A stretch of DNA of 64,000 nt from Candidatus Obscuribacter phosphatis (GTDB lineage Bacteria > Cyanobacteriota > Vampirovibrionia > Obscuribacterales > Obscuribacteraceae): the NCBI GenBank assembly GCA_001899315.1, contig MOYA01000001.1, positions 2,146,599 to 2,210,598 of the forward strand, read 5' to 3'. This document shows, one piece after another, positions 30,942 through 57,840 of the stretch. Both the position numbers and the translations under genes were made by a program. Within the stretch, counting starts at the first letter, position 1, and the number at the start of each line of letters is the position of its first letter. The notes under the pieces are model-generated. The model had not been told where the DNA came from, did no database searches, and saw only the letters and a program-made list of their open reading frames with translations.

Positions 30942-30974
30942 CCTGCTTAATCGGAAGCTTACTTCTTAAGCAGG
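30942..30974. terminator. Hairpin between convergent genes
   Basis: CCTGCTTAA (30942-30950) pairs with TTAAGCAGG (30966-30974), and GAAG/CTTC inside can extend the stem. It covers the last codons of the 756-residue gene and follows the 86-residue gene by a few bases. There is no T-run, so termination is only suggested. Confidence 0.4.
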
Positions 30975-40400: not shown

Positions 40401-40630
40401 ACCGTAAAGACACGCCGGCTTCCGACTCAGCTGCCTGGTTCTGCCGTTTGCTCACAGAAAGACTGATAGGCATGCCCGACGTCGACCTAGCTTACTGCCT
40501 AGCCGCTCACCTAATCAAAGATCAACAACTTTCAACCGATGCTCAGTTGGTTCTGCTGCATAAAGTCAGAACTGCTCTGGAAAACTTCCAAAACGAAGCC
40601 GAGGCAGGAGAGCAAGGTGGAGGAGAATAG
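37427..40630 (+). CDS. HerA-like ATPase with Cys-rich C-terminal region
   Basis: The 1067-residue protein has a HerA/DUF87-type ATPase core from about 385 to 800: Walker A GVTGGGKT (416-423), EPAKSEYRHM after strand 2, Walker B HVMLVEEAHRLL with E662, and a sensor-like IADQIPNKLAPEALKNTN. The N-terminal 380 residues have no recognised fold. The C-terminal part has two CxxCxxxC motifs (C815, C818, C822 and C961, C964, C968) that could hold zinc or an iron-sulfur cluster. HerA proteins form hexamers that move DNA; some FtsK/HerA relatives drive protein secretion. The gene follows the TraG-like ATPase by 64 bases and overlaps the 254-residue gene by 14 bases, which indicates one operon. Confidence 0.85.
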   Translation: MTQDGHSRSIWEERIADLRRYDLDNLESEPVDPASLTSWPIPGLTFVRVDGILRSWDIEREKQQQGQNVQQDPDPTKPPKRMYLMEDALTGLHSQKANLAFLVLGDKSGVHYYMGISLPSAVETTEPGTDPSSICYNSLKSILHSVYGGVDVFKKPFSAEEMHTMIKPMTKYTGVVTGIPALKSTAGDTTDSEQIERLAAGLQGNEFGMLILAVPIPSKNVTREETAVVDQIQRAQENEDPEKKRKIKYYLELQDSYLKHIQLGTALGMWLTVPYFFAPKRDVFVRLQSLLRATYVDETSRPTPLRTHEVEGLSDHIQKFGLLRTKREGEYFQELLEYRFLSPLNSRMLSAFVHLPKREMPGFRIRRSAEFSLAEIPPKDPNRVIAIGNILDRGEDTGNLYYIDVDALQKHTIVCGVTGGGKTNTCFYLVGQLWRYGIPFMVCEPAKSEYRHMMLMSETFKGVGQAFSLGDETVSPFRLNPFEIMKGVKVQTHLDALKSVFNASFEMYSPMPQVLEKALNSIYSVRGWDLINNVNRRLPPGMNPGDPDCPPEIYPTMKDLYEIIDPIVEGFGYSDRIGPDVQAALKARIGSLLIGGKGQMLNTRRSIPMKDLFGKPTVVELKMVSEDSEKSFLIGMLLVFLYEYREALGPHDHLQHVMLVEEAHRLLKNVPTGQSGESANPAGKAVEFFTNMLAEIRSYGQGFIIADQIPNKLAPEALKNTNLKIMHRIVAVDDRDSMGGAMNLDDVQKRHVTALGQGRAIVYAEKMEQPYHLQIMFDKTKEVPPPETPEESDEVVRQAMRGLNIIGTYDRHLGCKFCLHRCDSQILDTAIPVADDPIFRQVYNRYVLSTLKDLTQLVHFRAQIIHEIQRVIGGRARTGNITGITWCALTQATERYFERKGENNYWFYDQVQEQHLRWLNLLRPAFQPTEVNRRLDIAILRQWRDDFLELHKLDQGPLPTCAPCTSKCLYRFEVSEVVRDPKIKFDFNSSINRKDTPASDSAAWFCRLLTERLIGMPDVDLAYCLAAHLIKDQQLSTDAQLVLLHKVRTALENFQNEAEAGEQGGGE

Positions 40631-41381
40631 TCCCACTGCAAACCCTGACGCTTCAGGCGAAGACCAAACTTCGCCGCAACAAGCTGCACCAAATGTCGCG
40701 GCCGAAAATACAGCAAGCCAACCCACTGAGCTTTCCATAGAAGAGCAAGAAAAACTAGATCAAGAAACAGACGAAGAATACAACCGTCTTTTTAAGAGGG
40801 CAGAGCACAAACCTCCCAAAGATTTCTTCGAAGGTGCTCCCTCTAGATTTGGAGACAAGAAGCCATTAGCAGAAGAACTCGGCATAGAGGATATCTATAA
40901 TCCGCTGGTAGGGGCACATGGACGTGTCTTTTGCGCAGCCGGTCCCGATACACCACTGGTGGTGATCGACGAAGAAGCTCTAGTCATACATCCGCCTCAA
41001 TTGCCACTGATGCAAGACGGGCAAGCAGAAACTTATGGAGTCCAAGTCAGTCCAAGGGGCATTTTGCTGGACTTCAACGGTACAGAAAAGAAAATTCCCA
41101 TGGCCAAATATAGAGGTCGGCCGATTTACTACTTTGGCGAATGCGTGCCTGGCAGCTACAGACATTATGCCGTGGTCGAAGATGCCAAAGGCGATATTCA
41201 CTACATCTATGACCGAGACAGCAGAGAAAAGCTATCGGTAGATGAAGTCTTTAGACTGAGAAATCGCACGCATGACAGCGAGATAGGCAGATATCCCCAT
41301 CTAATTTCAAGCATTGACGAATTCACAAGTGAGCCGGAAAGAGTAAATCCTGAAGGAACTACAGACATCTCGCTAGACTGA
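40617..41381 (+). CDS. Unknown 254-residue protein coupled to the HerA-like gene
   Basis: I do not recognise the family. The start is GTG 40617 with AGGAG six bases upstream, inside the last codons of the HerA-like gene; the open frame further upstream is only overlap. The first 65 residues are acidic and disordered-looking. The rest is a compact beta-rich region (for example RVFCAAGPDTPLVVIDEEA, VSPRGILLDFNGTEKKIP, RPIYYFGECVPGSYRHYAVV). No membrane segment or signal is visible. Coupling to the ATPase suggests a subunit or adaptor. Confidence 0.75.
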   Translation: MEENSPTANPDASGEDQTSPQQAAPNVAAENTASQPTELSIEEQEKLDQETDEEYNRLFKRAEHKPPKDFFEGAPSRFGDKKPLAEELGIEDIYNPLVGAHGRVFCAAGPDTPLVVIDEEALVIHPPQLPLMQDGQAETYGVQVSPRGILLDFNGTEKKIPMAKYRGRPIYYFGECVPGSYRHYAVVEDAKGDIHYIYDRDSREKLSVDEVFRLRNRTHDSEIGRYPHLISSIDEFTSEPERVNPEGTTDISLD

Positions 41382-41395
41382 AAGTTCATACATAG

Positions 41396-41441
41396 AGATT
41401 TCTGTACTGATAGATTTCTGTACTGATAGATTTCTATACGG
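41396..41441. repeat. Three 16-base direct repeats at the convergent gene ends
   Basis: AGATTTCTGTACTGAT occurs at 41396-41411 and 41412-41427, and a diverged third copy starts at 41428. The array spans the gap between the 254-residue gene and the stop of the giant gene, reaching into its last codons. Confidence 0.8.
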
Positions 41442-44400
41442 AGAGCTTTCTGCCAGACAAGAATCTTTCGCAATACTTTGCCCAGTTCTGACTCAACTCG
41501 TTCTGCACCATTTGCCCAACAGCAACAGAGGGCAAATCAATCGATATCGACTTACGGCGTCCATCTCTAGAATACTCATGGCGAGTGGAAGAATCATCTC
41601 CCACCTCATAAGCAAGCACTGGTATCCAGTTCTCACCATTCAATACTTCAAGCTGTTGCTTATTCAGTCTACGACCGGACACTTCAATTTCTACCTTGAC
41701 CAATCGGCAAGTCTGAGAAAATGCTTCGATAGTGCGAGTGCCTTCGACTTCCAGCAAATGACTGTCTCCCGCTCTAGAAATGACCGGTGCCGGCACCGAC
41801 GGCGGATTAGAAGGCGACACACCGGCCTCAGGCAGACTTAGTGTTGTCTTGTCATTGTCTATATGGGTAGTCTCAAGATTGGGTGATGTAATCACCGTAT
41901 GGTCATCGTCTAGAGGTGAAGTGGGAATGCCTTGGGGCAAAGCAAAAGTAGTTGCTTGGTCTTCAGGCGCAGAAGATACCGGCACGCTCTCGAAGACATA
42001 GCCGCAAGCAGGACAGAGCGATGCCGACTGACTAAGCAAGCGGTCACAACCACCGCAGGGCTTGGTGGCAAATTCGAGTATGGCTCGTGAAGACATATTT
42101 TGAGGCTCGAAGACAACCGGCTTGGCAGGCGAAGACTCAGAACGATACGCCGATATCTCTTCAGCCGAAGGAATGGTCAACTGCGCACCACGAATCAATA
42201 CCGCCAGCGGTGCGCCTTTGGAATCAGTATCGGTAGACAAGCCATTCTTTACGGCAAGCAGCTTCCAGAGTGTCACATCACGAAGGTCGGGATGCTTCAT
42301 GGCAATAGAGCGTAAAGTGTCGCCTAATCTAACTGAATAGACAGAGCCTTCCAAACCGTCATTAGACTCTCTAATCTTACCGATAATCTTCTCAATATTA
42401 GCCCGACGCTCATCTTGACCAGCATTACCAGGAACCGCAGCCATACCTCGCCCTGTCGCTTCTTGGCTGGACTTGGGACCAGAGCCGACGCGAGCCAGCC
42501 ATTCTCTCACCTGTCTCGGGCTAGGCAAGATCAAAACCGTGCCGGGTTTGGCGTAATAGCTACGCTTACCACCAGTCCAACGCACTTCAACCGACTTCTT
42601 GTTCAGTTCAAATATAAGGTCTGCGACGCGAGGGTCCTTAAACTTGCGAACAGCAATCATGGTCAGGTCTTCATTCTCCCGCACCACATATTTCTCTTGC
42701 AGGTTGTCCTTGCGGATCATTTCCTGCAACACTTCTCTTTCCTGCCTAATGCGCAATTCACGAGCGCGGGCTTCTGCTTCAGACTGTTGTCTTATGGCCA
42801 GCATAATTGCCATTTCTTCAGCCAGGCGACGTTCTTTTTCGTGATCGCGATCTTTGCGATCTTTATCGTCATCCAGTCGTTTCTTGGCTTCAGAAACCAG
42901 ACGCTCTTTTTCTTTATGCTCAAAATCGAGCCGTCTTTCTTTCTCAAGTTCGCGAGCGTGAGCTTCTTCAAGCTCTTTGATATACCGAGCCTGACTATCG
43001 AGTTCGGCAATCAAACCGCCGGAACCATGCATAACATTATCAAGCATTTCAGAGGCGCGAGTGGTCAGTTCTTCAGCTTGTTGCCTGGTGCTTTCGGTCA
43101 ACGAGCCCAAGGCTTCAGCAAAGCTACGCTGAGCATCCATCAAATCTTGCCATTTCGCACTATTCTCATCAGGAAGATGCTCATCGATTTGATACTGCAT
43201 GGCAGCTTGGTCAATTCTATCGCCGGGTTGAACAAACGGCTCACTCTTATCAGGTACGGCTTCATAACCGATGCCTTCTTTTGCAGAAGGATCGCTCGGT
43301 CTAACTGCATCGTTATGGCGAACCTCGCTCTCGGAATCAGGCTTACCTTTGGTATAGAAGGAAACCAAATCATCAACTGATTGCGAAGCAATGAGAGCAT
43401 CATCGGCATTGAGAATGCTTGCAGGAGTGACAGGAAGATTCTGGAAGGCAGTCTGATCATCGGCATCGCTGTGGATTGCAAGCATCGGATCGCTATAAGG
43501 CACACCGAAACTACCGCCGTAGATAGGATCGGCTGGAGACTGCGGCACGAAGTTGGTCGTTGAATCGGAGTATGGGCTGCCGAAACCTGCGTAGGCAGCA
43601 CCATCAGTGGGTGAACCTTCAGGAATCGGTGAACCAAACGAGCTACCTTCAATGGCACTATTACCTGTCTGATTCATCCAGCCAGGATAATTACTAGCAA
43701 TGTAGTCATCGATTGGACCGTAATAAGTAGCCGAATCTATGGTGGGCTGTCCCCAACTATTGGCTTGATTTGCTTGTGTAGAATCGACGGAAATACCCGG
43801 CACTTGCACCGCATTCAATTGTTGAAGCAAAGCTAGTTCTTCGAGCCTGGCCATCTCAGCTTGTCGGAGGCTCTCTATATCAGCTTGGCGCTGAGCCTCT
43901 TGCTGGCGTATGGCCTCTTGTTGCCTTAGAGCCTCCTGCTGAATAATCAGGTCTTGTTGCCTTTGCGCTTCCTGCAATTGAGCGAGCTCTTGGGCCCGCG
44001 CCTGGGCGTCGAATATCTGATTATTATCAACAGCAGGCGTATTCGACGAGTTCGAACTACTGAATGCAGAAGAGCTAGTCTGTCCGAAATTATCTGACAG
44101 AACTGAATTCAGAATTGTATCGAATACTTTCTCAACAATCTGAGCATCAGTAGGGGCGGCAAGGGGCGATACGTTGATTGAATTGGGCAGATTTAGAGGC
44201 TCAATCACCGTGCTAGTATCTGGTTGAGTTATTGATACCGGCTGAACTGGAACCGATTCTGGAGTTGGATTTGGAGATGGAGTTGGAGCTGGAGTTGGAG
44301 CCGGAGCGGAGACAGAATCGGAGCCGGCGCTAAGTTGAGATGCCACATAGATAATGTTGGCAATTATGGTTTCAGATGCCGAGACCGTTCCATCGCCATT

Positions 44401-47400
44401 AAAATCAGGATTGATGACCAAATTGGTCGGCGAAGGGCTATTGCCACTCTGGGTCTGATTGACAAGATTGATATAAACCTGCAGCAGCTGATCTTGACTG
44501 AGTTGCTCGAGTGGAACACCATTGGTCTGAGGCAGAATGACATTGTAGACAGGCTGCGAAATCTGCGAAGATTGAATATTCTGCACAGGATTGGTATTGT
44601 CTGACTGAGCTTGAGTTTGCTGAGCCGTCTGTTTAGGTTGGCCATTTGGATCTTGCTGGGTAGCTTGCGCTGGCTGACCATTTGGATCTTGCTGGGTAGC
44701 TTGCGCCGGCTGACCATTTGGATCTTGCTGGGCAGCTTGACTAGATATATTGGAGGGATCGTTAGAATTAGCGGGACCACTAAAGCTGGGGGTAGCGCTT
44801 TGATCGTTCGACTTAGCACCACCAGCCGATGTAGCAGCACTAGATGCAGTGGAGGTGCCACTGCTGCCGGGGTCACTAGCAGAACCTGTCGGCATAATGG
44901 GCGCGGAAGTAGAATTTGGTGAAGGTTGAGCACCAGTGGCGGCACCAGATGACTGGTTGCCGCCACTGCCACCGGAAGCGATACCAGTTCCACCCGCAGA
45001 GGAACCAGTTCCAGTCATCGAACCAGTACCAGTCGTCGAACCAGCACCAGTCATCGAACCAGTACCAGTGCCGCCGACGGAGGAGGGAGATGATGTTGAT
45101 GCCCCCGTTGAGGCTATGCCGGTAGTAGTAGTAGTATTACCGGTGGCAGAAGTAGTAGAACTAGTTGAAGTAGCAATATTTCCGGGCGTCGAACCTGCAG
45201 AATCTTTGGCAGAAGTCGCTACAGTGACTCCGCCAATGGTGACAGATCCGCCGACTGAAACTCCAGAAGGTCCAGCCTGAATATTGATGGAAGCACCATC
45301 TTTAGCATTACCTACAGAAGCTGTGACAGAAACCACTTTACCAGCTGCATCTACAGTAACTCCTGTCGACTGGCCGGAACTGGAGCCGCCTGCAGAACTT
45401 GATGTTGAGGTGGGCTCTTTGGTAGTAGAACTAGTGCCATTAGAGATTGAACCGATGTTGCCGGCTTGCTGATTGCCCGCAGCGTTTGCAGCAGCCTGAC
45501 CGCCTTGAACATTAGCTGCAGAACCCTGGGTTGAAACTTGAGAGACGATTCCAACTGCCGGAGTTTGAGCCGCGCCAGTTGGATTAACGGCAGAAGTGGC
45601 TCCTGCAGCCGTAGAATTTGTGCCAGATGGAGCGTTTCCAGTAGCAGCTGAAGTCGCAGAAGTTGTACCACTAGGACTTGTTCCTGCACCAGCTTGTGAT
45701 AGGATACCACCAGACTGAGTGGCAGTGCCTGAGGTCTGTGCGTTGGAGATAGAACCAGCATTGGCATTCCCGGCCCCAGTGGTTGTGTTTCCGTTAGCAG
45801 AATTAACCGAATTCGAATGCCCCCCGCTAGGATCTTTCTGCTGAGAAGTGGTTTGAGCCGCACTTCCAGCCGAATTACCGGTTGCAGAGCCGACGGGCGA
45901 AGTGCTCTGGCTGGATGAGGCATTGCCTGTCGTAGCAGATGTCGAAGCCGTTGTGCCGGTCTGAGTACTTGCCTGGGCACCGGACTGGGTGGCATTTCCG
46001 ATGCTCTGAGAATTACCGCCAGTTTGCCCCGATATGCCACCGGTCTGCATAGCTGAACCAGAGCCAGCTTGCGAGATGTTGCCACCTGCTTGGGGTGTGG
46101 CAGCACCTGATTGGGTGACAGCGCCGGTCTGTGATGCACCTCCAGAAGTGCCACCCGCCTGGTTTCCGGAGGCAGCCTGAGATAGACCACCTCCAGTCTG
46201 GGTTGCCGAACCAGCTTGAGCAGTTGTAGCGCCGGTCTGAGTTGTCGAGCCAGCTTGAGCAGTCGTACCACCGGTCTGAGTCACATTCCCAGTCTGTGCG
46301 GCGGTTCCACCAGCTGTACTATTCGCCTGGGAGCCAGATGCAGCCTGAGATAAGTTGCTTCCGGTTTGTGCAGACGCGCCTGTTTGCGAGGCAGCGGCAC
46401 CAGCACCGGTCGTGGCTCCTGTTTGAGCAGCACCACCAGTTTGAGTCGTCGCCCCGGTATGAGCAGTAGCACCACCAGTAGCACTGTTGCCCTGGGAGCC
46501 TGATGCAGCCTGAGACAGGTTGCCACCTGCTTGGGTTGTCCCTGTTTGCGAGGCGGCACCACCAGCTTGGGTTGTCGAGCCAGTTTGAGCAGAGGTTCCG
46601 CCTGCTTGCGTTGAACCTGTTTGCGAGGCGGCACCACCAGCTTGGGTTGTCGCGCCTGTTTGAGCAGAGGTTCCGCCTGCTTGAGTTGTCCCTGTTTGCG
46701 AGGCGGCACCACCAGCTTGGGTTGTCGAGCCAGTTTGAGCAGCAGTTCCGCCTACTTGGGTTGAACCTGTTTGCGAGGCGGCACCACCAGCTTGGGTTGT
46801 CGCGCCTGTTTGAGCAGTAGTTCCGCCTGCTTGAGTTGTCCCTGTTTGCGAGGCGGCACCACCAGCTTGGGTTGTCGCGCCTGTTTGAGCAGCAGTTCCG
46901 CCTGCTTGAGTTGCCCCAGTCTGGGTAGCAGCACCGCCACCAGTAGCACTATTTGCTTGAGAGCCTGATGCCGCCTGTGATAGGTTTCCGCCTACTTGAG
47001 TTGTACCTGTCTGGGCGGAAGCACCACCAGCTTGAGAAGTCGCTCCTGTTTGAGAGGCAGCTCCACCAGCTTGAGTTGTCGCTCCTGTCTGAGCAGCAGT
47101 TCCACCTGCTTGCGTTGATCCTGTTTGAGCAACAGTTCCGCCTGCTTGCGTTGATCCTGTTTGAGCAGCAGTTCCACCTGCTTGCGTCGAACCAGTTTGA
47201 GCAGCAGTTCCGCCTGCTTGCGTTGAACCAGTTTGAGCAGCAGTTCCGCCTGCCTGCGTTGAACCTGTTTGAGCAGCAGCTCCACCTGCTTGCGTTGAAC
47301 CTGTTTGAGCAGCAGATCCACTAGTTGCGCTGTTCGCCTGAGAACCGGAAGCAGCCTGAGACAGGTTGCCACCTGCTTGCGTTGCCCCAGTCTGAGTAGC

Positions 47401-50400
47401 AGCTCCACCTGCTTGCGTTGTTCCAGTCTGAGCAGCAGCTCCACCTGCTTGCGTTGCTCCAGTTTGAGCAGCAGCTCCACCAGTCTGAGTTGTCGCTCCT
47501 GTCTGAGCAGCAGTTCCGCCTGCTTGCGTTGAACCAGTTTGAGCAGCAGTTCCGCCTGCCTGCGTTGAACCTGTTTGAGCAGCAGCTCCACCTGCTTGCG
47601 TTGAACCTGTTTGAGCAGCAGACCCACTAGTTGCGCTGTTCGCCTGAGAACCGGAAGCAGCCTGAGACAGGTTGCCACCTGCTTGCGTTGTTCCAGTCTG
47701 AGCAGCAGCGCCACCTGCTTGCGTTGAACCTGTTTGAGCAGCAGCTCCGCCTGCTTGCGTCGAACCAGTTTGAGCAGCAGTTCCACCTGCTTGCGTCGAA
47801 CCAGTCTGAGCAGCAGCTCCACCTGCTTGCGTTGCTCCAGTTTGAGCAGCAGCTCCACCAGTCTGAGTTGTCGCTCCTGCCTGAGCAGCAGTTCCGCCTG
47901 CTTGCGTTGAACCAGTTTGAGCAGCAGTTCCGCCTGCTTGCGTTGTTCCAGTCTGAGCGGCAGCGCCACCTGCTTGCGTTGAACCTGTTTGAGCAGCAGA
48001 CCCACTAGTTGCGCTGTTCGCCTGAGAACCGGAAGCAGCCTGAGACAGGTTGCCACCTGCTTGCGTTGTTCCAGTTTGAGCAGCAGTTCCACCTGCTTGC
48101 GTCGAACCAGTTTGAGCAGCAGCTCCACCAGTCTGAGTTGTCGCTCCAGTCTGAGCAGCAGCTCCACCTGCTTGCGTTGCCCCAGTCTGAGCAGCAGCTC
48201 CACCTGCTTGCGTTGCCCCAGTCTGAGCAGCAGCTCCACCAGTCTGAGTTGTCGCTCCCGTTTGAGCAGCAGATCCACTAGTTGCGCTGCTCGCCTGAGT
48301 GCCTGAAGCCGCCTGAGACAAATTGCCACCTGCCTGCGACGTATTTCCGGTTTGTGCAGCACCAGTCTGAGCTGTCGCTCCAGTCTGAGCTGTCGCTCCA
48401 GTCTGAGCTGTCGCTCCAGTCTGAGCAGTAGCTCCAGTCTGGGCAGTCGCTCCAGTCTGAGCAGTTGCACCAGCCTGAGCAGTCGCTCCAGTTTGAGCAG
48501 TCGCTCCAGTCTGAGCAGTTGCCCCAGTCTGAGCTGTTGAAGTATGTTGAGCTGCGCCACTGGCAGTAGAAGCATTTGTCTGCGCACCAGCTGCCGCCTG
48601 CGATAGGTTTCCGCCGGTCTGTGCAGCAGTTCCTGTCTGTGCAGCAGTTCCTGTCTGTGCAGCAGCTCCTGTCTGCGCAGCAGCTCCTGTCTGTGCAGCA
48701 GTTCCGGTCTGAGCAGCAGCTCCTGTCTGTGCAGCAGTTCCTGTCTGCGCAGCAGCTCCTGTTTGTGCAGCAGTTCCTGTCTGTGCAGCAGCTCCTGTTT
48801 GTGCAGCAGTTCCTGTCTGTGCAGCATTCCCTGTGTGAGTAGCAGCACCGGTCTGTGCGGCACCTCCAGCAGCAACCTGTGCAAGGTTGCCTCCAGTTTG
48901 GCTTCCAGCAGGATTGGCGGCACCCGCATTTGCAGCAGTCTGAGTGCCTTGGTTCGCTTGTCCCGCAGCTGAACCGGCAGATGCTGCAGGCTGCGCTTGA
49001 TTAGCGGCGCCTCCCGCTGCGACCTGAGACAGATTACTGCTGCCTGTATTTTGGCCTTGAGAAGCCTGTCCGGCATTAACCTGTCCTTGCGCATTCTGCG
49101 CTGTGCCTTGGGAACCTTGCTGTGCCCCCTGGGCAGATTGACCTGCCGGACTTACAGCGTTCACTTGCCCCGTTGCTGCCACCTGTGACAAATTACCGGA
49201 AGCTGCTCCGCCAGGCTGCTGTGCCGTCTGCGTTCCAGCAGGCGGTTGAACTGCGGTCTGCTGTCCAGCAGTTTGTTGTCCGACCGCCCCTGCCGGAGGC
49301 TGACTGCCTGCCGCAGGCGGGCTACCTGCTGGCGGCTGATTTCCAGCCTGTTGTTGCTGACCTGTGACCGCGCCCGCGTTCACGGCACCAGCAGTACCTG
49401 TGGCAGCTGCTTGAGCGAGATTTCCAGAGGCAGGTTGAGCGGCGGTTGCTGCACCAGCCTGCGGTTGAGCCGCACCAGAATTCTGTGCGGGGTTGGGCGC
49501 CGCAGGATTCGGACCTGGAGCAGGTGCTGGTACTGGGGCTCCTCCATGGGCTGGTACCGGTGCAGGTGCCGGAGCCGGTACTGGAGCCGGTGATGGTGCC
49601 GGTGCTGGCGCCGGAGCAGGTGCTGGAGTCGGATTTGGATTCGTATTATTAGGAACGGCTCCAGTTTTTGAAGCATCAGTTACAACACGAGATGGATCTG
49701 TTGTGGTGGCAGTTCCAGTGGTGGTACGCGGCAGTTCAGGCACAACGACTCTGCTTGAGTCAGTATTTGTTGTCGGGCGTGCATCGACCACAGCAGGTCG
49801 CGCTGCTTCGGTAGCGATAGCTCTGGCAGCTGCACTATCAGGTGGGGCTGGCTTAGTTGCTTCAACTGGAGGCTTATAAACTTCAGTTGGAGGCGGCATC
49901 TTGATTGGCTCTGGAGCTGCAACCTTACCGGATTCGGGAGTCGCTGGTGCTTTCGCCAGATCACCGCCCGGCTTAACACCAGTATCCACAACAATAGGTT
50001 TACTTGGTTCAACTGTTGGAGCAACCTTGCCGAGATCACTTGTAGGCGTTGCAGTCTTAGCAGGATCAGCACCGGCCGCAGGCTTGGTCTCCGGCACAGG
50101 AGCAGGTTTGGCAGTCTCGACCGGTGCGGCAGCGACCTTCTCTTTAACGATAGCATTCTGCAATGCTTGCTGAGCAGCTAACTGCGCCGCCTGTTGAGCG
50201 GCAGCATTATCAACGGTTGACTTGACCGGCTCCGCTGACTTAACTGGCTCCGGCGCCTTAACGGTTTCGGCAGTCTTCGGTAGTTCTGGAGCCTTAGCCG
50301 GGTCTACCTTCAGCGGATCCTGCTTCGCTTGGGTGGGGTCCACCGCCACAGGAGGCAATTTTGAAGGATCAGCCTTGGCAGCTTCTGCCTGTTTAGCCAG

Positions 50401-53400
50401 CTCGGCAGCTTTCTGCTGCTCAACGGCGCGAGCTTGCTCGGCAGCCTTTTGTTGCTCAACAGCACGAGCTTGTTCAGCTGCTCTCTGCTGTTCAGCACGC
50501 TGTGCTGCAAGCTTGTTGCCTTCGGCAGCTGCTAGAGCAGCAGCCGCAGCCGCGGCGGCAGCTGCCGTAGTCGCGGCATCGGCTGCTGGTCGAGGAGCCT
50601 CAACTACCTTATTACCATTGCCATCGAAACGCTCGACTGTACCTGTCTTGGTATCAGTAACAACCTTAGAATTGTCTGCATTAGTTTGGGTTGTTATTCC
50701 AGTATTTCTGTTCTCTTCAATCTTGACGCCTGTCTGTTTGTCGATTGTTGTTACGACATTCTTAGCTGCATCCTCAATCTTGATTGTTGTAGCAGTCTCG
50801 GTCTTGATGGTCTGATTTGCGAAGTCTTTAGTGACAGTGGTGCCATTAAGCATGTGGGTTGTTTCGACATTAGCAGTCTTGTCCATGACGACAATATTGC
50901 CCTGCTTGTCAAAACCGATAGACTGCCCTGCCTCAACTTTGATGTCTCGAGCTGGCATTCCAGCTTGCTCAGGCATCTTAATCATGGCTGAGCCGTCGGC
51001 GTTGTAGATCACTTCACCCTTGCTAACGCCGTTTCCATCTGTGATTGATGTCTTGCCATTAGCAGTAGTGAGCACAGAGGTCACATCACCGTGGCTGTCA
51101 AAGTTGCGCAGAACAGAAATGGTTCCGTCTGCAGATACAGTCCTCTGGCTGACCAGACTATTGCCTTGCCACGAGTACTCGACTTTATTGCCGTTCTCGC
51201 CGATGTATTGAATAACTTTTCCATCTTTGCTGTAGGTCTCGCTGCTTCCATCTGTGTGTAGATTGGTGCGCGATCCGTCAGCATGGGTGATGACAGGCAA
51301 CCCTGACTTAGCATCGACCGTGATGCTATCGCCTGCCCCGTTCATCTTGACCGACAAGCCAGTATTTACTCGGTCAACAGAGGTATATTCGCCGTTGGGT
51401 CCAACTTGATAAACAAAACCCTTACCGTCGGCATCGAGCTTACTCAATACACGTCCATTGGCATCGGTCGTAATAGTGCCGCCCTTATCGTCATAGGCAA
51501 CTCTGCTAACCACATTGCCGCTAGAGTCTAGGTTTGTTACTACAGGCAACTTAGAATTGGCATCGACAGCTATAGGACCGTTAACTGACTCAAATGTCTT
51601 GCCACCATCTTTGCTGATTTGCATAGCGCTAACATTTGGAGGCACGCCATCATACTTATAAAGAACGTTGCTGTCGGTTCTATAGAGTCCACCAACAACC
51701 TCACCTTTATCATTCTGAATAGGTCGATAGGCTTCGCCGGTATTGCGCGCATACAGATACTCACCACCGGCGGTGCTTATGGTGCCTTCCCATACTCTTT
51801 GCGCTTCTTTCGGTAGGTCAACTGTCTTGGTATTATCAGTAGGCGAAATAGCGGCTATCTGCTTCCACTGAGTGTCACCAGTGATAGGATCGCGAGGTGA
51901 ACCTTCGACGTGAGCCCAAACTCCTTCTCGGTTCTTGATTTGAACAAGCTGTCCGGCCTCGTCATACTTGAATTCGTACTTAAAGCCGTCGGTCTTGTCT
52001 AAAATCGACTCCAGACGTCCATCGGTGTTGAAGCTCTTCTCTTGATTCTTGATGTAATCAGTTACAACATAAGAGCCATCTGCCTTATAGAGGGCGCTGA
52101 TACCATTGAGAGTACTGTATTCGATACTACCATCAGCATTCGCTTTCGCCGCCGAAATCTGTTCGGTGCTGCCATCAGGCTTGGTGCGCACATAAGAGCC
52201 ATCATCATTCCGGGCAATAGTGCTACCATCTGATAGCCTCGCCGAAACTATATTGCCATTGGCATCGAGAACAGCATCCATCTTACTGCTGCTTACTCGT
52301 TCCGAGACAAAGTTACCATTTATGTCATAAACCGATTCGGTTTTGACTCCATCTTTGACTTCGCTAAACTTGTGGCCAAAGTCTTTCTGTAGAGTCTCAG
52401 AGATATTCTGAGCCCTATACAAGACAAGCTCTCCGGTAGCTTTATCGTATACCGCGTATGGTGGCTGAGCATTCTTATCTGCAGCGTCGACAAGCTTGAA
52501 TGACTCGGTCTGCCCATCAGGCAGCTTCATGTTTACACTGCGGGTGCCATCAGAGTTATATTCAACTTTAACTTCCCCAGCTGGTCCAACCTGCGAAGTC
52601 AGCATGTTGTCAGACGAATACCAGCGGTAATTCTTGGCGTCGGCGGTAAATTCACCGCGGGTGCCATTATCCAGCTGAACAATCGAAGAGCCATCAGGTT
52701 TAGTTATGTTGACAAAGCCACGCTCGTCGCGTTCAAGGTTGTAGCCGCTCTTGCCGTTTTGATCTACATAGATAAATTTCTCTGGATTGGATGGATCTTG
52801 AACCCTCTTAATATCGCCGATATAGTCGCTGCTGATGCGAGCGACCTTGCCATCTTTGTCATACTCGGTGACAAGGTGACCGGCCGCATCATTCATGACC
52901 ACGCGTGAACCGTCCATCCTCAGTGTCTGCCTGATTCCATCAAGCGACTCGTAGGTAAAGTTACCGCTCTCACCGTCAAAAGAAGCGCCTTTCAGCTTCT
53001 CAACAGTATTGCTCTTAGTATCGAGACGACTCCACTCTCCGGTGCTGGTGTCTTTGGTGAACTGGTCAGCGCCTCTCAAATATCCAATCAGTTCGCCATT
53101 GCTGTCGAAACTCCGACTAGATACGACCTTGCCGTCGACCAGCTCAGCTCGGGTGTAAGCACCATTTCTTCCATAAGTATCTGATGTATTGTCTAAATTT
53201 CTAGCGGTGAAAGCCCCTGTGGTCTTATCATAAGAAAGACCTTCAATCGCCATATTGTTTCGACTCCAGACATTGGAAGTGGAATCGAAAGAATAGACAT
53301 CAGCACCTCGTACAATCTGAGTCGGATTACCTTCAGCATTAAGATTGACAGTCTGATGGACCCCGTTTGCCGAAGTGGAAGTAATAACGCTCTCACCGTT

Positions 53401-56400
53401 GGCAAAGGTTGTAGTGCGCGTGCCATCAGGCTCCACTTTTATACTCTCGCCGGCTTTCTCTATGGCAAGATTGCCGCTCATATCTAAAGCAAGCTTGTCT
53501 AGCTTTTGACCATCTGCACTTTGCCAGATTTTGGTCCCTGGTGCATTAGGGTCATCTACTTGGCTATAGACGGTACCTCCATCGGTGACCGATACCAGAT
53601 TGCCATTCTTATCAAATTTACCGGAATAGCCCCCAATAGCGCTAGTCAAAACCTTATCAGTACCCTCACCAAAACGCAGGCTGGTTGCTGATGTGACAGA
53701 CACATCTACAAATCTGCTTCTGGCGTCAAAAGATACATTTTGATAGACCTTACCGTCAGCATCCTTCCAATTTTTGGCTGATTCGTCGTAAGTGAAAGTA
53801 CTACCCGATATGCTCACCGATCTGAGCGAACCATCGGCCTTATAGCTTGCAGTGGTTGCTCCAGACCCACTATCAGGATAAGTCAGAGTGTAATCGCCGC
53901 TGCGCTCTCTTGTCTCCAGCTTACCATCGAGATGCTGCAGCTTAAGTGTGCCCTTCTCAGAGTCCACAGAAATATCTTTATAGACCTTACCATCGGTGGA
54001 TACCCACTGCCCATCAGCATTCTTCTTAAAGTTAGGCGGCACCTCGGTAAACTTGCCGGTGCTCGAATCACCAAAAGCCCAATTGTAGGCACTTGAAGCC
54101 GCGCCAGTCACCGTATCGTAGGCAGAAGAAGCTCCATCTTTTACCGTTTGCCAGAGGCTTTGACCCGCTTTGTCGGCATTAGCTTGGTCTACCGCAGCGG
54201 CGGTTACAGCCTCTTTCGATGGCGCAGCGCCGTCTGCAGCGATGGCTGGATTTACTTTGGTCTGCACAGGTTTGGCAGCGTCGCCAGATACCATCTGCCT
54301 CTGTAAAGCGATTCTGTCCAGAAGATTTCCCGGTCTGGTCTGAGCGGCATCTATGCCAGCTGAGCTGCCAGAGACCGGTTTGACATCTACAGGAACAATC
54401 AGTTTACCGCTGCTGTCATAGCGATCAACTTTGCCACTTGGAGCTGTCACAGTGCGACTACCATCAGTTGCAATAACTATCTTATTGCCGGTCGCATCCG
54501 TAGAGCTAATTCTTCCTGATTTGTCAACCGTCGCATCAGTACCGACCACGATCTGCGTGCCATTTGCAGCTTTGACCACGCGATTGCCATCGCTGTTCGT
54601 TGTAACGTCCAGCTTGGCGCCGCTGCCGTTCCTCACACTGAAATTGTCGCCCTTGCGTTCCACAACAGTCGTATCTGAGCCACTATAATATTCCTGCCTA
54701 ATGCTACCGTCGGACCTGGCCAAAGTGCTCTCGATGCGTCGCCCATTTTCATATTTGAAGTTCTTGACCGAACCATCTGCACCAACTTGAGAGAGCAACA
54801 AACCATTGGCGCTAGAAGTTTGGTAACCGCCCACGGTATCGTATTTAGTGACAGATTTATCACCATGGGTGATGATAGGCATGCCGGTCTTAGAGTCAAC
54901 CGTTATCTTCTCGCCGTCTTTATTTAGTCTTGTATCTACAATACCGCCCCGAACGGTCATAACACTGGTATACTCACCCTTCTCATTCAAGCTATAGGTG
55001 ACACCATTACCAGAGGCATCAAGCTTGCTTAGCACCCGCTTGTCACCATCTGTGGTGGTAGTATTACCACGGTCATCATAACTAACCTTGGTCAATATTT
55101 TGCCGTCAGTGCCGCGGGTGACTATAGAAGGCAGCTTGGAACCAGACTCCTGCACGACTTCGCCCGGAACGGTCTCGAATGTCTTGCCGCCGTCTCTACT
55201 TATTGATAAACCCTTAATATTGGGCGACACCCCATCATACTTATATTGCACACCGTTGCTACCAATATAGCGAGAGCCTATTTCTTCACCGGCAGCGTTT
55301 TGCTCAGGGCGCAGGTTGTCGCCCGTTTTTCTAGAGAAAGTGTATTCATTACCTTCAGTACTGATCGAACCTTCCCAAACAAGACGGCTTTTCTCGGGAA
55401 CCTCTTTAGTCTCGAAAGGCGGGGTTTTCGATATCTCAGAAACTCGTTCCCACTTCGCATCACCGGTTACCGGGTCTCTAGAGCTTCCGTCAACTACACG
55501 CCACTGTCCAGCACGGTTAGTCACTTCAGAAAGCTGTCCATCATTGCCATATTTGAACTGATAGACAAAACCGTCCTTGCTATCGGTCATGGAAACCATT
55601 CGACCGTCGGCATCAATATCTTTTGTTACGCCGCGGAATCTATCTTCAATTTTGGAAGAGCCATCAAGATTGACGCGATGAACTTCACTGCCCGAAGTGT
55701 ACTCGATACCGCCGTCGGAATTGGTACGCACATCAAGAACATACTCGCTTTGTCCTTGCCTATCGGTGCGAACATAGGCACTGGAACCATCAGGACTATC
55801 GTATTTGTCTATGCGACTGCCGTCAGGTAACTCCGCACCAACTATGCCACCACTAGAATCAAGTCTATAGCTTACTTTATTGCCATTTACCTGGTCATAA
55901 AGGTAGCCGCCATCGCGACCATAAACGGTCTCAGGCTCTCTACTATCGATAGAATCGGCGAAGCGACGGGTAAAGTCACTCTGTAGTGTTTCAGTAACCC
56001 CATTTCCTCTATGCAGAACAAGGTCGCCGCTTTCTTTATCGTATGTAGCATAGGGAGGCAGACCAGACTGATCATCCTTGACCAACTGAAAGGTCTCGGT
56101 TTCTCCAGTCATAGAAAACCGCACCACACTCTGCGAGCCATCGGCAGCGGTTTCAACCTTTAGATAATCAGAAAAACTAGACTGATCTACGAATGAATTA
56201 TCGGCCCCGTACCAACGGGTGGCGCTATTGTCTGCTGCCGACTCAGATCTTGTGCCGTTGGTAGTCTGCATGATCTTATCGCCGTTCGGCTTGACTATGT
56301 TGACATTACCGAACTCATTTTGACTGACGCTATAGCCGCCCAGATTTTGTTCATCGACAAAGGTGCTGGCTTTATCGCCAACTTGCACCTTATGCAAATA

Positions 56401-57840
56401 ACCAACATGATCACTGCTAAAACCGGTCAATTCACCGCTTGCTGAATACTCATAACGCAAGTTACCTGTAGACTCAGGTCCTTGCACCACTCTGTCGCCA
56501 TTAGCTTTGAGAGTTTCCTTGCTGCCGTCTTTGAGATCAAAGGTGAACTCTTTCGAACTTGAATCATAATTTGCGCCGGCTAAGATATCGGTCTTGCCGG
56601 TGGCGGCATCATAACGTGACCAGACTCCTGATTTTTCATCTTTGATGAAACTCTGATCGCCGCGAACATAAGCAGTCAAGTTTCCGTTAGCATCAAAATC
56701 TGCCTTGGCGGTAACTTTGCCGTCGGCAATTTCAGCATGGCTAGACTTACCGTCTTTGCCGTAGGTATTGCGACTGCCATCAAGATTATCGAGAGTAAAA
56801 GTGCCCTTGCTTGCATCATAACTGGCACCATTGAACGGCTCGCCATTTTTAAGCCAGCTATTGGTTGCCGGCACAAAACGATAACTATCACCATTCAATG
56901 TTATTGAAGACAAAGAACCATCGGCGTTATTAACGACCTTAAGACCTTGTTCTGCACCATCAAAGCCCGTAGACGGTGCACGACCGACCGGCTCTGATGG
57001 AGCGAAATTGAGATCGTTGCCCGTCTGGCTTAGAGGAGGCAGTTCGGCGAGACCTTCCCCCGACGAAACAGGAGCCGCTTCAGCCGACATTGGGGGCATT
57101 TCTACAGTCAAACCATCGCGGGAAACGGCAGTAGGACGGCTAACCGGCAAGGAGCCGTCGCCCACCTGGGCAGGCGGCTTGGCGGCGGAGACAGAGGCAT
57201 CTACGCCCTTACCAACTTGAGAAGGAGGCTGACCAGGGACGACTGTATCGCCAATTTTGACCGAATAACCGTCTGATGAAGAACCGTTCTGAGGCTTGGC
57301 TACTTCGCTAGATTTATTAGCATCGCCAGACTTATTAGCTTCGCCAGACTTATTGGCTTCGCCAGACTTATTGGCTTCGCTAGTTTTATTGGCGGAGTTG
57401 TCTTTGCCTGAGTTATCACCTTGTTTAGAGACGGCGGCCGAATCGGGCGAAGCAACTGCATTAGCCCAAGCCAGCATGTCTTGGTCATCGACAGTCGCCT
57501 TATCTTTCTCGGCATCGTCTTTTTGGCTGGGCTTGATTTTGTCTAGAGAAATCGGCGGGGCGCCGACTTTCGAAGAGGCGGAAGAACCACCATATTTCGA
57601 TTCGATGTCCTTAAAGCGGGGGTCGCTCGAAACCGGCGGAACAAAAAGTGTGTCGTCTGAAATCTTCTTCTCGGTAGTCGGGACGCCCTGCGTCTTCTCA
57701 ACAGCCGGCACATTCTGAGCTTGCCCGGGCTTGGCTACAACTTCCTCTGCCATGGCAGCAGAAGCTTTGTCTTTACCTGCTTCAGCTGCCTTTTCAGCGG
57801 GCTGATCGGTGTTTTTCTTCTTTTCTGTATCGTCTGCCAA
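41434..57840 (-). CDS. Giant (about 5,470-residue) YD-repeat, LysM-like surface-type protein
   Basis: The frame is open from GTG 57882, but TTG 57840 has GGAG eight bases upstream and gives MADDTEKKK, comparable to MAGTNDK of the next gene, so I prefer it. In order it has: a disordered N-terminus with SGEANK repeats; YD/RHS-like beta repeats in two super-repeats (about 313-1080 and 1510-2267); an Ala/Gln helical stretch; a Pro/Ala segment; an AQTG-rich repeat field (about 2997-3887); Ser/Thr/Gly sequence; an EF-hand-like loop DFNGDGTVSASE (about 4479-4490); coiled coils (about 4900-5045); and two LysM-like domains (about 5046-5115, 5150-5235). It ends with a four-Cys zinc ribbon (CGGC...CPAC) and a C-terminal domain shared with two neighbours. 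No signal peptide, RHS core or toxin tail is seen. A surface or matrix role is inferred. Confidence 0.85.
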   Translation of the reverse strand: MADDTEKKKNTDQPAEKAAEAGKDKASAAMAEEVVAKPGQAQNVPAVEKTQGVPTTEKKISDDTLFVPPVSSDPRFKDIESKYGGSSASSKVGAPPISLDKIKPSQKDDAEKDKATVDDQDMLAWANAVASPDSAAVSKQGDNSGKDNSANKTSEANKSGEANKSGEANKSGDANKSSEVAKPQNGSSSDGYSVKIGDTVVPGQPPSQVGKGVDASVSAAKPPAQVGDGSLPVSRPTAVSRDGLTVEMPPMSAEAAPVSSGEGLAELPPLSQTGNDLNFAPSEPVGRAPSTGFDGAEQGLKVVNNADGSLSSITLNGDSYRFVPATNSWLKNGEPFNGASYDASKGTFTLDNLDGSRNTYGKDGKSSHAEIADGKVTAKADFDANGNLTAYVRGDQSFIKDEKSGVWSRYDAATGKTDILAGANYDSSSKEFTFDLKDGSKETLKANGDRVVQGPESTGNLRYEYSASGELTGFSSDHVGYLHKVQVGDKASTFVDEQNLGGYSVSQNEFGNVNIVKPNGDKIMQTTNGTRSESAADNSATRWYGADNSFVDQSSFSDYLKVETAADGSQSVVRFSMTGETETFQLVKDDQSGLPPYATYDKESGDLVLHRGNGVTETLQSDFTRRFADSIDSREPETVYGRDGGYLYDQVNGNKVSYRLDSSGGIVGAELPDGSRIDKYDSPDGSSAYVRTDRQGQSEYVLDVRTNSDGGIEYTSGSEVHRVNLDGSSKIEDRFRGVTKDIDADGRMVSMTDSKDGFVYQFKYGNDGQLSEVTNRAGQWRVVDGSSRDPVTGDAKWERVSEISKTPPFETKEVPEKSRLVWEGSISTEGNEYTFSRKTGDNLRPEQNAAGEEIGSRYIGSNGVQYKYDGVSPNIKGLSISRDGGKTFETVPGEVVQESGSKLPSIVTRGTDGKILTKVSYDDRGNTTTTDGDKRVLSKLDASGNGVTYSLNEKGEYTSVMTVRGGIVDTRLNKDGEKITVDSKTGMPIITHGDKSVTKYDTVGGYQTSSANGLLLSQVGADGSVKNFKYENGRRIESTLARSDGSIRQEYYSGSDTTVVERKGDNFSVRNGSGAKLDVTTNSDGNRVVKAANGTQIVVGTDATVDKSGRISSTDATGNKIVIATDGSRTVTAPSGKVDRYDSSGKLIVPVDVKPVSGSSAGIDAAQTRPGNLLDRIALQRQMVSGDAAKPVQTKVNPAIAADGAAPSKEAVTAAAVDQANADKAGQSLWQTVKDGASSAYDTVTGAASSAYNWAFGDSSTGKFTEVPPNFKKNADGQWVSTDGKVYKDISVDSEKGTLKLQHLDGKLETRERSGDYTLTYPDSGSGATTASYKADGSLRSVSISGSTFTYDESAKNWKDADGKVYQNVSFDARSRFVDVSVTSATSLRFGEGTDKVLTSAIGGYSGKFDKNGNLVSVTDGGTVYSQVDDPNAPGTKIWQSADGQKLDKLALDMSGNLAIEKAGESIKVEPDGTRTTTFANGESVITSTSANGVHQTVNLNAEGNPTQIVRGADVYSFDSTSNVWSRNNMAIEGLSYDKTTGAFTARNLDNTSDTYGRNGAYTRAELVDGKVVSSRSFDSNGELIGYLRGADQFTKDTSTGEWSRLDTKSNTVEKLKGASFDGESGNFTYESLDGIRQTLRMDGSRVVMNDAAGHLVTEYDKDGKVARISSDYIGDIKRVQDPSNPEKFIYVDQNGKSGYNLERDERGFVNITKPDGSSIVQLDNGTRGEFTADAKNYRWYSSDNMLTSQVGPAGEVKVEYNSDGTRSVNMKLPDGQTESFKLVDAADKNAQPPYAVYDKATGELVLYRAQNISETLQKDFGHKFSEVKDGVKTESVYDINGNFVSERVSSSKMDAVLDANGNIVSARLSDGSTIARNDDGSYVRTKPDGSTEQISAAKANADGSIEYSTLNGISALYKADGSYVVTDYIKNQEKSFNTDGRLESILDKTDGFKYEFKYDEAGQLVQIKNREGVWAHVEGSPRDPITGDTQWKQIAAISPTDNTKTVDLPKEAQRVWEGTISTAGGEYLYARNTGEAYRPIQNDKGEVVGGLYRTDSNVLYKYDGVPPNVSAMQISKDGGKTFESVNGPIAVDANSKLPVVTNLDSSGNVVSRVAYDDKGGTITTDANGRVLSKLDADGKGFVYQVGPNGEYTSVDRVNTGLSVKMNGAGDSITVDAKSGLPVITHADGSRTNLHTDGSSETYSKDGKVIQYIGENGNKVEYSWQGNSLVSQRTVSADGTISVLRNFDSHGDVTSVLTTANGKTSITDGNGVSKGEVIYNADGSAMIKMPEQAGMPARDIKVEAGQSIGFDKQGNIVVMDKTANVETTHMLNGTTVTKDFANQTIKTETATTIKIEDAAKNVVTTIDKQTGVKIEENRNTGITTQTNADNSKVVTDTKTGTVERFDGNGNKVVEAPRPAADAATTAAAAAAAAAALAAAEGNKLAAQRAEQQRAAEQARAVEQQKAAEQARAVEQQKAAELAKQAEAAKADPSKLPPVAVDPTQAKQDPLKVDPAKAPELPKTAETVKAPEPVKSAEPVKSTVDNAAAQQAAQLAAQQALQNAIVKEKVAAAPVETAKPAPVPETKPAAGADPAKTATPTSDLGKVAPTVEPSKPIVVDTGVKPGGDLAKAPATPESGKVAAPEPIKMPPPTEVYKPPVEATKPAPPDSAAARAIATEAARPAVVDARPTTNTDSSRVVVPELPRTTTGTATTTDPSRVVTDASKTGAVPNNTNPNPTPAPAPAPAPAPSPAPVPAPAPAPVPAHGGAPVPAPAPGPNPAAPNPAQNSGAAQPQAGAATAAQPASGNLAQAAATGTAGAVNAGAVTGQQQQAGNQPPAGSPPAAGSQPPAGAVGQQTAGQQTAVQPPAGTQTAQQPGGAASGNLSQVAATGQVNAVSPAGQSAQGAQQGSQGTAQNAQGQVNAGQASQGQNTGSSNLSQVAAGGAANQAQPAASAGSAAGQANQGTQTAANAGAANPAGSQTGGNLAQVAAGGAAQTGAATHTGNAAQTGTAAQTGAAAQTGTAAQTGAAAQTGTAAQTGAAAQTGTAAQTGAAAQTGAAAQTGTAAQTGTAAQTGGNLSQAAAGAQTNASTASGAAQHTSTAQTGATAQTGATAQTGATAQAGATAQTGATAQTGATAQTGATAQTGATAQTGATAQTGAAQTGNTSQAGGNLSQAASGTQASSATSGSAAQTGATTQTGGAAAQTGATQAGGAAAQTGATQAGGAAAQTGATTQTGGAAAQTGSTQAGGTAAQTGTTQAGGNLSQAASGSQANSATSGSAAQTGSTQAGGAAAQTGTTQAGGTAAQTGSTQAGGTAAQAGATTQTGGAAAQTGATQAGGAAAQTGSTQAGGTAAQTGSTQAGGAAAQTGSTQAGGAAAQTGTTQAGGNLSQAASGSQANSATSGSAAQTGSTQAGGAAAQTGSTQAGGTAAQTGSTQAGGTAAQTGATTQTGGAAAQTGATQAGGAAAQTGTTQAGGAATQTGATQAGGNLSQAASGSQANSATSGSAAQTGSTQAGGAAAQTGSTQAGGTAAQTGSTQAGGTAAQTGSTQAGGTAAQTGSTQAGGTVAQTGSTQAGGTAAQTGATTQAGGAASQTGATSQAGGASAQTGTTQVGGNLSQAASGSQANSATGGGAATQTGATQAGGTAAQTGATTQAGGAASQTGTTQAGGTTAQTGATTQAGGAASQTGSTQVGGTAAQTGSTTQAGGAASQTGTTQAGGTSAQTGATTQAGGAASQTGSTQAGGTSAQTGSTTQAGGAASQTGTTQAGGNLSQAASGSQGNSATGGATAHTGATTQTGGAAQTGATTGAGAAASQTGASAQTGSNLSQAASGSQANSTAGGTAAQTGNVTQTGGTTAQAGSTTQTGATTAQAGSATQTGGGLSQAASGNQAGGTSGGASQTGAVTQSGAATPQAGGNISQAGSGSAMQTGGISGQTGGNSQSIGNATQSGAQASTQTGTTASTSATTGNASSSQSTSPVGSATGNSAGSAAQTTSQQKDPSGGHSNSVNSANGNTTTGAGNANAGSISNAQTSGTATQSGGILSQAGAGTSPSGTTSATSAATGNAPSGTNSTAAGATSAVNPTGAAQTPAVGIVSQVSTQGSAANVQGGQAAANAAGNQQAGNIGSISNGTSSTTKEPTSTSSSAGGSSSGQSTGVTVDAAGKVVSVTASVGNAKDGASINIQAGPSGVSVGGSVTIGGVTVATSAKDSAGSTPGNIATSTSSTTSATGNTTTTTGIASTGASTSSPSSVGGTGTGSMTGAGSTTGTGSMTGTGSSAGGTGIASGGSGGNQSSGAATGAQPSPNSTSAPIMPTGSASDPGSSGTSTASSAATSAGGAKSNDQSATPSFSGPANSNDPSNISSQAAQQDPNGQPAQATQQDPNGQPAQATQQDPNGQPKQTAQQTQAQSDNTNPVQNIQSSQISQPVYNVILPQTNGVPLEQLSQDQLLQVYINLVNQTQSGNSPSPTNLVINPDFNGDGTVSASETIIANIIYVASQLSAGSDSVSAPAPTPAPTPSPNPTPESVPVQPVSITQPDTSTVIEPLNLPNSINVSPLAAPTDAQIVEKVFDTILNSVLSDNFGQTSSSAFSSSNSSNTPAVDNNQIFDAQARAQELAQLQEAQRQQDLIIQQEALRQQEAIRQQEAQRQADIESLRQAEMARLEELALLQQLNAVQVPGISVDSTQANQANSWGQPTIDSATYYGPIDDYIASNYPGWMNQTGNSAIEGSSFGSPIPEGSPTDGAAYAGFGSPYSDSTTNFVPQSPADPIYGGSFGVPYSDPMLAIHSDADDQTAFQNLPVTPASILNADDALIASQSVDDLVSFYTKGKPDSESEVRHNDAVRPSDPSAKEGIGYEAVPDKSEPFVQPGDRIDQAAMQYQIDEHLPDENSAKWQDLMDAQRSFAEALGSLTESTRQQAEELTTRASEMLDNVMHGSGGLIAELDSQARYIKELEEAHARELEKERRLDFEHKEKERLVSEAKKRLDDDKDRKDRDHEKERRLAEEMAIMLAIRQQSEAEARARELRIRQEREVLQEMIRKDNLQEKYVVRENEDLTMIAVRKFKDPRVADLIFELNKKSVEVRWTGGKRSYYAKPGTVLILPSPRQVREWLARVGSGPKSSQEATGRGMAAVPGNAGQDERRANIEKIIGKIRESNDGLEGSVYSVRLGDTLRSIAMKHPDLRDVTLWKLLAVKNGLSTDTDSKGAPLAVLIRGAQLTIPSAEEISAYRSESSPAKPVVFEPQNMSSRAILEFATKPCGGCDRLLSQSASLCPACGYVFESVPVSSAPEDQATTFALPQGIPTSPLDDDHTVITSPNLETTHIDNDKTTLSLPEAGVSPSNPPSVPAPVISRAGDSHLLEVEGTRTIEAFSQTCRLVKVEIEVSGRRLNKQQLEVLNGENWIPVLAYEVGDDSSTRHEYSRDGRRKSISIDLPSVAVGQMVQNELSQNWAKYCERFLSGRKLSV
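44371..44406 (-). other. EF-hand-like calcium loop in the giant protein
   Basis: The codons give DFNGDGTVSASE: Asp1, Asn3, Asp5, Gly6, Val8 and Glu12 match the canonical 12-residue calcium loop, followed by a hydrophobic helix (TIIANIIYVASQL). It is a single loop, as in half-dockerins, not a pair. Confidence 0.6.
44636..44743 (-). repeat. Three 36-base repeats (QATQQDPNGQPA)
   Basis: Three contiguous in-frame 36-base units at 44636, 44672 and 44708 encode the 12-residue unit QATQQDPNGQPA with minor changes. They lie between the Ser/Thr-rich part and the EF-hand loop. Confidence 0.85.
46180..48850 (-). repeat. AQTG/QAGG repeat field in the giant protein
   Basis: About 890 residues consist of short units such as AAQTGTT, TQAGGTA and AAQTGA. 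They are divided every 60-150 residues by GGNLSQAASGSQANSATSG-type blocks. The composition is almost only Ala, Gln, Thr, Gly and Ser. The DNA is a degenerate tandem array with near-identical blocks, so it may vary in length between strains and be hard to assemble. Confidence 0.9.
51030..53310 (-). repeat. YD-like super-repeat, copy 2
   Basis: This about 760-residue region aligns with copy 1 (54600-56900) in the same order: VWSR...GASF, LDG..QTLR.DGSRVV, PPYAVYDKATGELVLYR, GFKYEFKYDEAGQLVQI, VWEGTISTAGGEYLYAR and YKYDGVPPNVSAMQIS. The offset between copies is close to 3.59 kb. Confidence 0.8.
54600..56900 (-). repeat. YD-like super-repeat, copy 1
   Basis: The region has many short beta-strand repeats built around G.L..[YFV]..DG, including PPYATYDKESGDLVLHR, FVYQFKYGNDGQLSEV, VWEGSISTEGNEYTFSR and YKYDGVSPNIKGLSIS, each with a counterpart in copy 2. 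The copies have diverged at many residues, so the duplication is old. Confidence 0.8.
57302..57390 (-). repeat. Five 18-base repeats (SGEANK) near the N-terminus
   Basis: Five consecutive 18-base units encode S[GS][ED][AV][NA]K-type hexamers within the disordered N-terminal region of the giant protein. Confidence 0.8.

Follow-up and report, generated by a model that had tools for sequence, protein, structure and literature searches.

Signal-less giant LysM proteins are linked to VirB4/VirD4-type ATPases in the cyanobacterial order Obscuribacterales

The window, i.e., the whole stretch of 64,000 nucleotides analysed here, is part of a 5.49-Mb genome from the order Obscuribacterales (non-photosynthetic Cyanobacteria/Melainabacteria). 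It carries a giant protein gene at 41434..57840 on the minus strand. The single frame of about 16.4 kb proposed in a first-pass annotation is present at exactly these coordinates; the plus strand is stop-rich in this region. A mechanical ORF search returns a longer version which starts with GTG at 57882 and codes for 5,482 aa. With this start the protein gains a short, weakly hydrophobic leader, MSRSTFSIFAGVSVLA-DD. We prefer the TTG at 57840 because GGAG sits 8 nt upstream and because a congener (G001) has a matching TTG start, (M)ADPNKPNEQDQ, preceded by an in-frame stop 12 codons upstream with nothing hydrophobic in between, which leaves no possible leader. TTG 57840 is thus the predicted start of a protein of 5,468 aa, and all its aa positions are counted from there. 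The description as one of the longer bacterial proteins holds only loosely: genes of >5 kb are called giant, yet a gene of 36,239 bp has been reported in a planctomycete (PMC5177795). According to the statement in which that paper cites Reva and Tuemmler, giant bacterial genes mostly encode surface proteins or PKS/NRPS (PMC5177795).

The architecture is composite. The N-terminal half contains two beta-repeat (RHS/YD-like) modules of ~830 aa each, module 1 at aa 290-1119 (54484..56973, minus strand like all features of the giant) and module 2 at aa 1488-2324 (50869..53379). They are 39% identical across 845 columns, and the Pfam RHS_repeat match of the giant reaches E=6e-20 (71.5 bits). An A/G/T/Q/S-rich repeat field follows (aa 2726-4001; 45838..49665), by composition a run of 1,276 residues free of K, R, D, and E. 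In other members of the giant family such charge-free runs are shorter or replaced by charged repeats; thus, length and composition of the field vary and its repetitiveness persists. A DxNGDG calcium-type loop (DFNGDGTVSASE) is located at aa 4479-4490 (about 44395-44406, minus strand; window 43.3-43.4 kb onward) and is conserved only in the three members of the genus. The region ahead of the first LysM domain (aa 4611-5045; 42706..44010) is highly charged, with probable coiled-coil-like segments as judged from composition and sequence. The C-terminal module comprises LysM-like domain 1 (aa 5046-5119; 42484..42705; family HMM and structural model), LysM-like domain 2 (aa 5165-5237; 42130..42348; Pfam LysM, family HMM, and model), a C4 zinc ribbon (aa 5260-5286; 41983..42063), and a C-terminal domain, CTD (aa 5363-5462; 41455..41754; family HMM and model). 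All components named in the first-pass annotation, i.e., beta super-repeats, huge polar field, coiled coils, LysM-like domains and zinc ribbon, are therefore accounted for, the coiled coil by composition.

The Pfam LysM score of the giant is 19.7 bits, that of its upstream neighbour 24.4 bits (cut-off 20.9). In the giant, the LysM domains are of a derived type that contains insertions; peptidoglycan binding may be lacking. The zinc ribbon matches UPF0547 with E=1e-4, under the cut-off of this model, yet it is conserved across most homologues. AlphaFold models the LysM domains well; for the CTD it predicts six strands and one long helix (pLDDT about 90). Comparison of the CTD model with the PDB gave nothing below E 0.05; PC4/PUR-type nucleic-acid-binding folds appear as weak matches which are not significant (E about 0.1). 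By sequence, the best PDB match of the C-terminal module is Kbp (E=0.0067). Hydropathy indicates no TM segment anywhere in the giant. Behind the zinc ribbons of the giant (aa 5290-5350) and of ATPase B (aa 30-40; see below) there are Thr-rich motifs, ATTFALP, KTTLSLP, and STLISTM, which could be candidate phospho-threonine sites.

Complete, uninterrupted orthologues of the giant, 2,541-5,933 aa long, exist in seven further assemblies. In the draft genomes G001 and G002 the contigs end inside the repeat field, as is expected of repeats. A comparison with a close MAG (L072) spans only the C-terminal ~1,900 aa and yields rough Nei-Gojobori dN/dS values, as dS is high in the repeats and their alignment approximate: 0.17 for the portion of the repeat field that was covered, 0.13-0.23 for the middle, and 0.02 for the C-terminal module, next to 0.01 for ATPase A. 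Within this part and at this precision, the in-frame purifying selection supports translation in the frame of the giant. Together with the uninterrupted orthologues it argues for one gene, coding for a predicted protein, and against an assembly artefact.

The C-terminal module of the giant is largely common to the next two genes, which the first-pass annotation had missed. The upstream neighbour (58098..62498, minus strand), a protein of 1,466 aa, has a LysM-LysM-CTD end according to sequence and family HMM, without zinc ribbon and without signal peptide. A 337-aa protein (62763..63776, plus strand) consists of one LysM-like domain plus CTD by the same evidence. On the other side of the giant lie, all on the plus strand, ATPase B (33571..37362), ATPase A (37427..40630), and a 280-aa protein of unknown family (40539..41381) for which orthologous loci show counterparts in close relatives only. 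A 756-aa coiled-coil-like protein (30959..33229, minus strand) is found at the same place across the order. Farther away, at 26677-28434 (minus strand), an RNA methyltransferase-like protein carries RKRFEDSGDKPRR-type repeats over a long N-terminal stretch; at the neighbouring locus of relatives the RNA methyltransferase-like enzyme is devoid of such a repeat field.

At its N-terminus, ATPase B carries a zinc ribbon; it also has two TM segments by hydropathy and a TrwB/VirD4/HerA-type domain. It scores 22.3 bits with PF10412 (cut-off 20.5) and matches the VirD4-like model NF045973 with E=8e-9, under the cut-off of that model. The DUF87/HerA domain is recognized in both enzymes, with 25.0 bits in ATPase A and 23.8 bits in ATPase B (cut-off 23.2). 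ATPase A is soluble by hydropathy. Profiles and model divide it into a VirB4-like N-terminal part, a HerA-type ATPase, and a C-terminal part with two nearly invariant CxxCxxxC motifs (aa 815-822 and 961-968), which are unusual for a HerA/VirB4 ATPase and constitute a possible Zn or Fe-S site. The AlphaFold model of ATPase A is good for the N-terminal 350 residues and poor for the ATPase core (mean pLDDT 65, pTM 0.40). In a Foldseek search with this model, TrwK/VirB4 (~876 columns, E=2.7e-11) ranks first, above HerA and TrwB, at TM-scores of 0.2-0.3. The low TM-scores reflect differently arranged domains; we therefore call ATPase A VirB4-like, not VirB4, the nearest fold according to a model of moderate confidence. 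A CedD-like stretch is also detected in ATPase A (E=6e-16), with a score of 58 versus a cut-off of 600.

When the locus is followed through the order, a dimension which escaped the first-pass annotation, it proves to be order-wide. The C-terminal module is found in all 53 Obscuribacterales genomes searched and in none of 46 genomes from other orders of the class. ATPase A is present in 48 of the 53 and again in none of the 46; several of the five genomes without a match are incomplete. The distributions of the two families are thus near-identical. ATPase B is followed by ATPase A and this by the giant in convergent orientation, an arrangement fixed in most genomes of the order: ATPase B is directly upstream of ATPase A at 35 of 43 loci, and a convergent LysM/CTD gene lies <3 kb from ATPase A at 28 of the 39 loci with enough flank. 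Most exceptions belong to a second (sister) family of Obscuribacterales in which ATPase A is duplicated and 58-60% identical; here it adjoins a haemagglutinin-like ORF of great length, whose N-terminus is signal-like, or precedes a LysM-ended protein by two genes. The latter is the case in the sister-family genome L109, where the second gene past ATPase A codes for a 1,019-aa protein with the same kind of LysM domain at its end. In a sister-family genome L104:13313-23170 and L107:2-9625 are overlapping pieces of one haemagglutinin-like ORF (about 6,300 aa, signal-like N-terminus), which stands between the duplicated ATPase A genes.

Across the family, ATPase A sequences share ~80-88% identity, and that of the nearest named record, an Obscuribacterales MAG, is 99% identical. 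Further copies of the module are encountered in other genomes, in several proteins per genome with long low-complexity N-termini; a Pfam search of eight such proteins uncovered no enzymatic payload. The C-terminus of the giant is constrained (dN/dS 0.02), and the N-termini evolve fast and lineage-specifically. EF-Tu, ribosomal and selA-like genes, named by eye, flank the locus in several genomes, which suggests vertical inheritance. Judged from these comparisons, the locus is order-wide and apparently vertically inherited. Outside the order relatives of ATPase A are scattered among photosynthetic cyanobacteria (7 of 291 other genomes). There (L117-L123), they occur in three settings, i.e., with FHA plus pilin-like proteins, with FKBP plus coiled-coil proteins, and with MreB/Hsp70-like proteins.

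HMM searches of the own genome for further T4SS components gave no match for VirB6 (PF04610, a poorly conserved family) and none for VirB9 (PF03524). VirB10 (PF03743) appeared only below cut-off at an unrelated locus (C1:718 kb), where the neighbourhood is ExbB/ExbD-like by eye; a T4SS at this site was rejected. VirB8 (PF04335) was without a match, as it was in the control genomes. WXG100 (PF06013) gave no match in the own genome. Because such families are easily missed by HMM, these absences carry little weight. Two motor features of a T4SS are in place and VirB6, VirB9 and VirB10 were not found; hence, we do not class the locus as a T4SS. From the sequences, it may at most work like a reduced one.

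How, then, does a signal-less giant with surface-type content operate? The claim of a missing export signal is borne out for the TTG start, and a signal peptide is lacking in every complete orthologue, all of which start hydrophilic, charged or polar as judged by sequence inspection and hydropathy. Among the possible starts only GTG 57882 provides a short weak leader, and this is excluded by the congener at the matching position. The giant beside its motors probably either takes an export route that has not been described or has an intracellular role. This alternative was formulated in the first-pass annotation, with the nearby motors as candidates. The motors have indeed turned out to be a conserved partner and their VirB4/VirD4-type features sharpen the idea of export; on the other side, channel components were not found and the zinc ribbon favours the cytoplasm.

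The reading we tentatively prefer is that a reduced VirB4/VirD4-type system, so far undescribed, takes the giants as clients and uses the C-terminal module as a handle. Favouring this are the client-like evolution of the giants, the missing signal peptide, the shared distribution and conserved linkage of module and ATPases, the recurrence of the module in several proteins per genome, the VirB4/VirD4-type pair, and the surface-type content; the idea is sharpened by the VirB4-like fold of ATPase A and by the VirD4/TraD-type domains and two TMs of ATPase B. The giant, made without signal peptide, would be the largest client of a chromosomally fixed VirD4-like (B) plus VirB4-like (A) system. Its C-terminal module (LysM-LysM-zinc ribbon-CTD) would be engaged by the motors, the disordered charge-free chain and the beta-repeat modules would be moved across the inner membrane, and the LysM domains would anchor the resulting long fibre or brush at the wall. 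C-terminal signals for VirD4 are known from T4SS effectors (XVIPCD), i.e., C-terminal client signals are a T4SS habit. Speaking against export, the locus is without an outer-membrane partner, and linkage of the genes for giants and ATPases is no proof of transport.

The main competing view, which we hold to be possible, is that the giant stays inside as a cytoplasmic scaffold. Through its zinc ribbon, derived LysM domains and CTD it would dock to the ATPase complex in the membrane, or these parts would dock to one another; the disordered chain would serve as a spacer or as a condensate which organises something at the membrane. Three points favour a scaffold: the C4 zinc ribbon is conserved and hints at a reducing compartment; the LysM domains have a derived form; and channel genes were not detected (by HMM searches in easily missed families). 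Further, the N-termini are hydrophilic and signal-less, ATPase B too carries an N-terminal zinc ribbon, and Kbp, the best PDB sequence match of the module, is a precedent for a cytoplasmic LysM protein. The surface-type content, i.e., RHS/YD repeats, polar repeats, and the DxNGDG loop conserved in the genus, does not fit easily; known scaffolds, to our knowledge, do not typically contain RHS repeats or charge-free repeats.

Improbable in our view is that the ATPases form a DNA-handling machine (HerA/VirB4/Ced-like), with the giants as accessory or tethering factors in DNA transfer or segregation. The CedD-like stretch of ATPase A points in this direction, as does Ced itself, a chromosomal, reduced T4SS-like DNA import system (PMC11868833); yet the resemblance of the CTD to nucleic-acid-binding folds is below significance, no relaxase was noticed, and a channel gene is missing from the matches here as well. 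An ordinary surface adhesin on a known route, be it Sec (the leader having been overlooked) or type I through TolC-like proteins, the ATPases being linked for other reasons, is very improbable: the GTG start would supply a leader and the genome has ten TolC-like genes, but the congener and the leaderless orthologues speak against Sec and against a Sec surface protein or autotransporter, and the locus has no type I genes.

Other assignments were rejected. A phage or mobile origin is disfavoured by one pattern-based scan of viral contigs, which returned no relative of the module, and by the position beside EF-Tu/ribosomal genes in several genomes. As for a defence system, the ATPases gave only generic HerA and mad8 matches and the giant and its neighbour none. 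A type VII secretion client would call for WXG100, for which the own genome gave no match. A baseplate/CIS reading found little backing: baseplate proteins match the LysM domains only weakly, and the locus showed no further CIS gene.

Export by the motors can be phrased more specifically, and then becomes rather doubtful: Obscuribacterales would possess an undescribed export machine in which a VirB4/VirD4-type pair without a classical T4SS channel moves signal-less giants, the longest of about 6,000 residues, with a LysM-zinc ribbon-CTD handle. If the giants are indeed exported by the motors, a whole non-photosynthetic cyanobacterial order would have a T4SS-derived route for signal-less proteins of thousands of residues. 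If the giants stay inside, they would be unusually large cytoplasmic scaffolds with >1,000 consecutive uncharged residues. In both cases, the locus is found throughout the order under strong constraint, has no assigned function, and offers a small, testable gene set.

A limited literature search, which is no proof of absence, retrieved no paper describing a signal-less LysM-CTD giant family. Several known systems share individual traits. FimV/HubP polar landmark proteins have a LysM-like domain and a long low-complexity region; the giant differs in that it has no TM and its LysM domains are C-terminal, and FimV_core matches only the upstream neighbour (E=0.055). RHS/YD polymorphic toxins resemble the N-terminal half with its RHS/YD repeats, whereas the C-terminus is a conserved LysM-ZnR-CTD end without a toxin family match in the parts searched; the toxin assignment was rejected on these grounds. 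Giant1-5 of Apilactobacillus kunkeei, with 3,000-8,000 aa, a long repeated middle and a conserved C-terminal segment, are similarly built, yet they carry Sec/SP1 signal peptides (PMC12863079), unlike the Obscuribacterales giants, which have none and are encoded beside ATPases. Crenarchaeal Ced (CedB/CedD) is likewise a reduced T4SS-like system, with HerA/VirB4-clade ATPases encoded on the chromosome (PMC11868833); here, a CedA-like channel was not seen, giant LysM proteins are linked, and the CedD score stays far below cut-off. Further traits are shared with the VirB4/VirD4 pair TrwK/TrwB of R388: TrwK/VirB4 is the nearest fold of ATPase A, and ATPase B has VirD4/TraD-like domains and two TMs. 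The Obscuribacterales pair deviates from T4SS by an additional domain of ATPase A which bears the two CxxCxxxC motifs, by the zinc ribbon of ATPase B, by the lack of matches to VirB6 and VirB9 with VirB10 only below cut-off elsewhere, and by its order-wide location, which is next to housekeeping genes and not on a mobile element. What is new is the linkage of such T4SS-type motors to an unnamed family of signal-less LysM-CTD giants.
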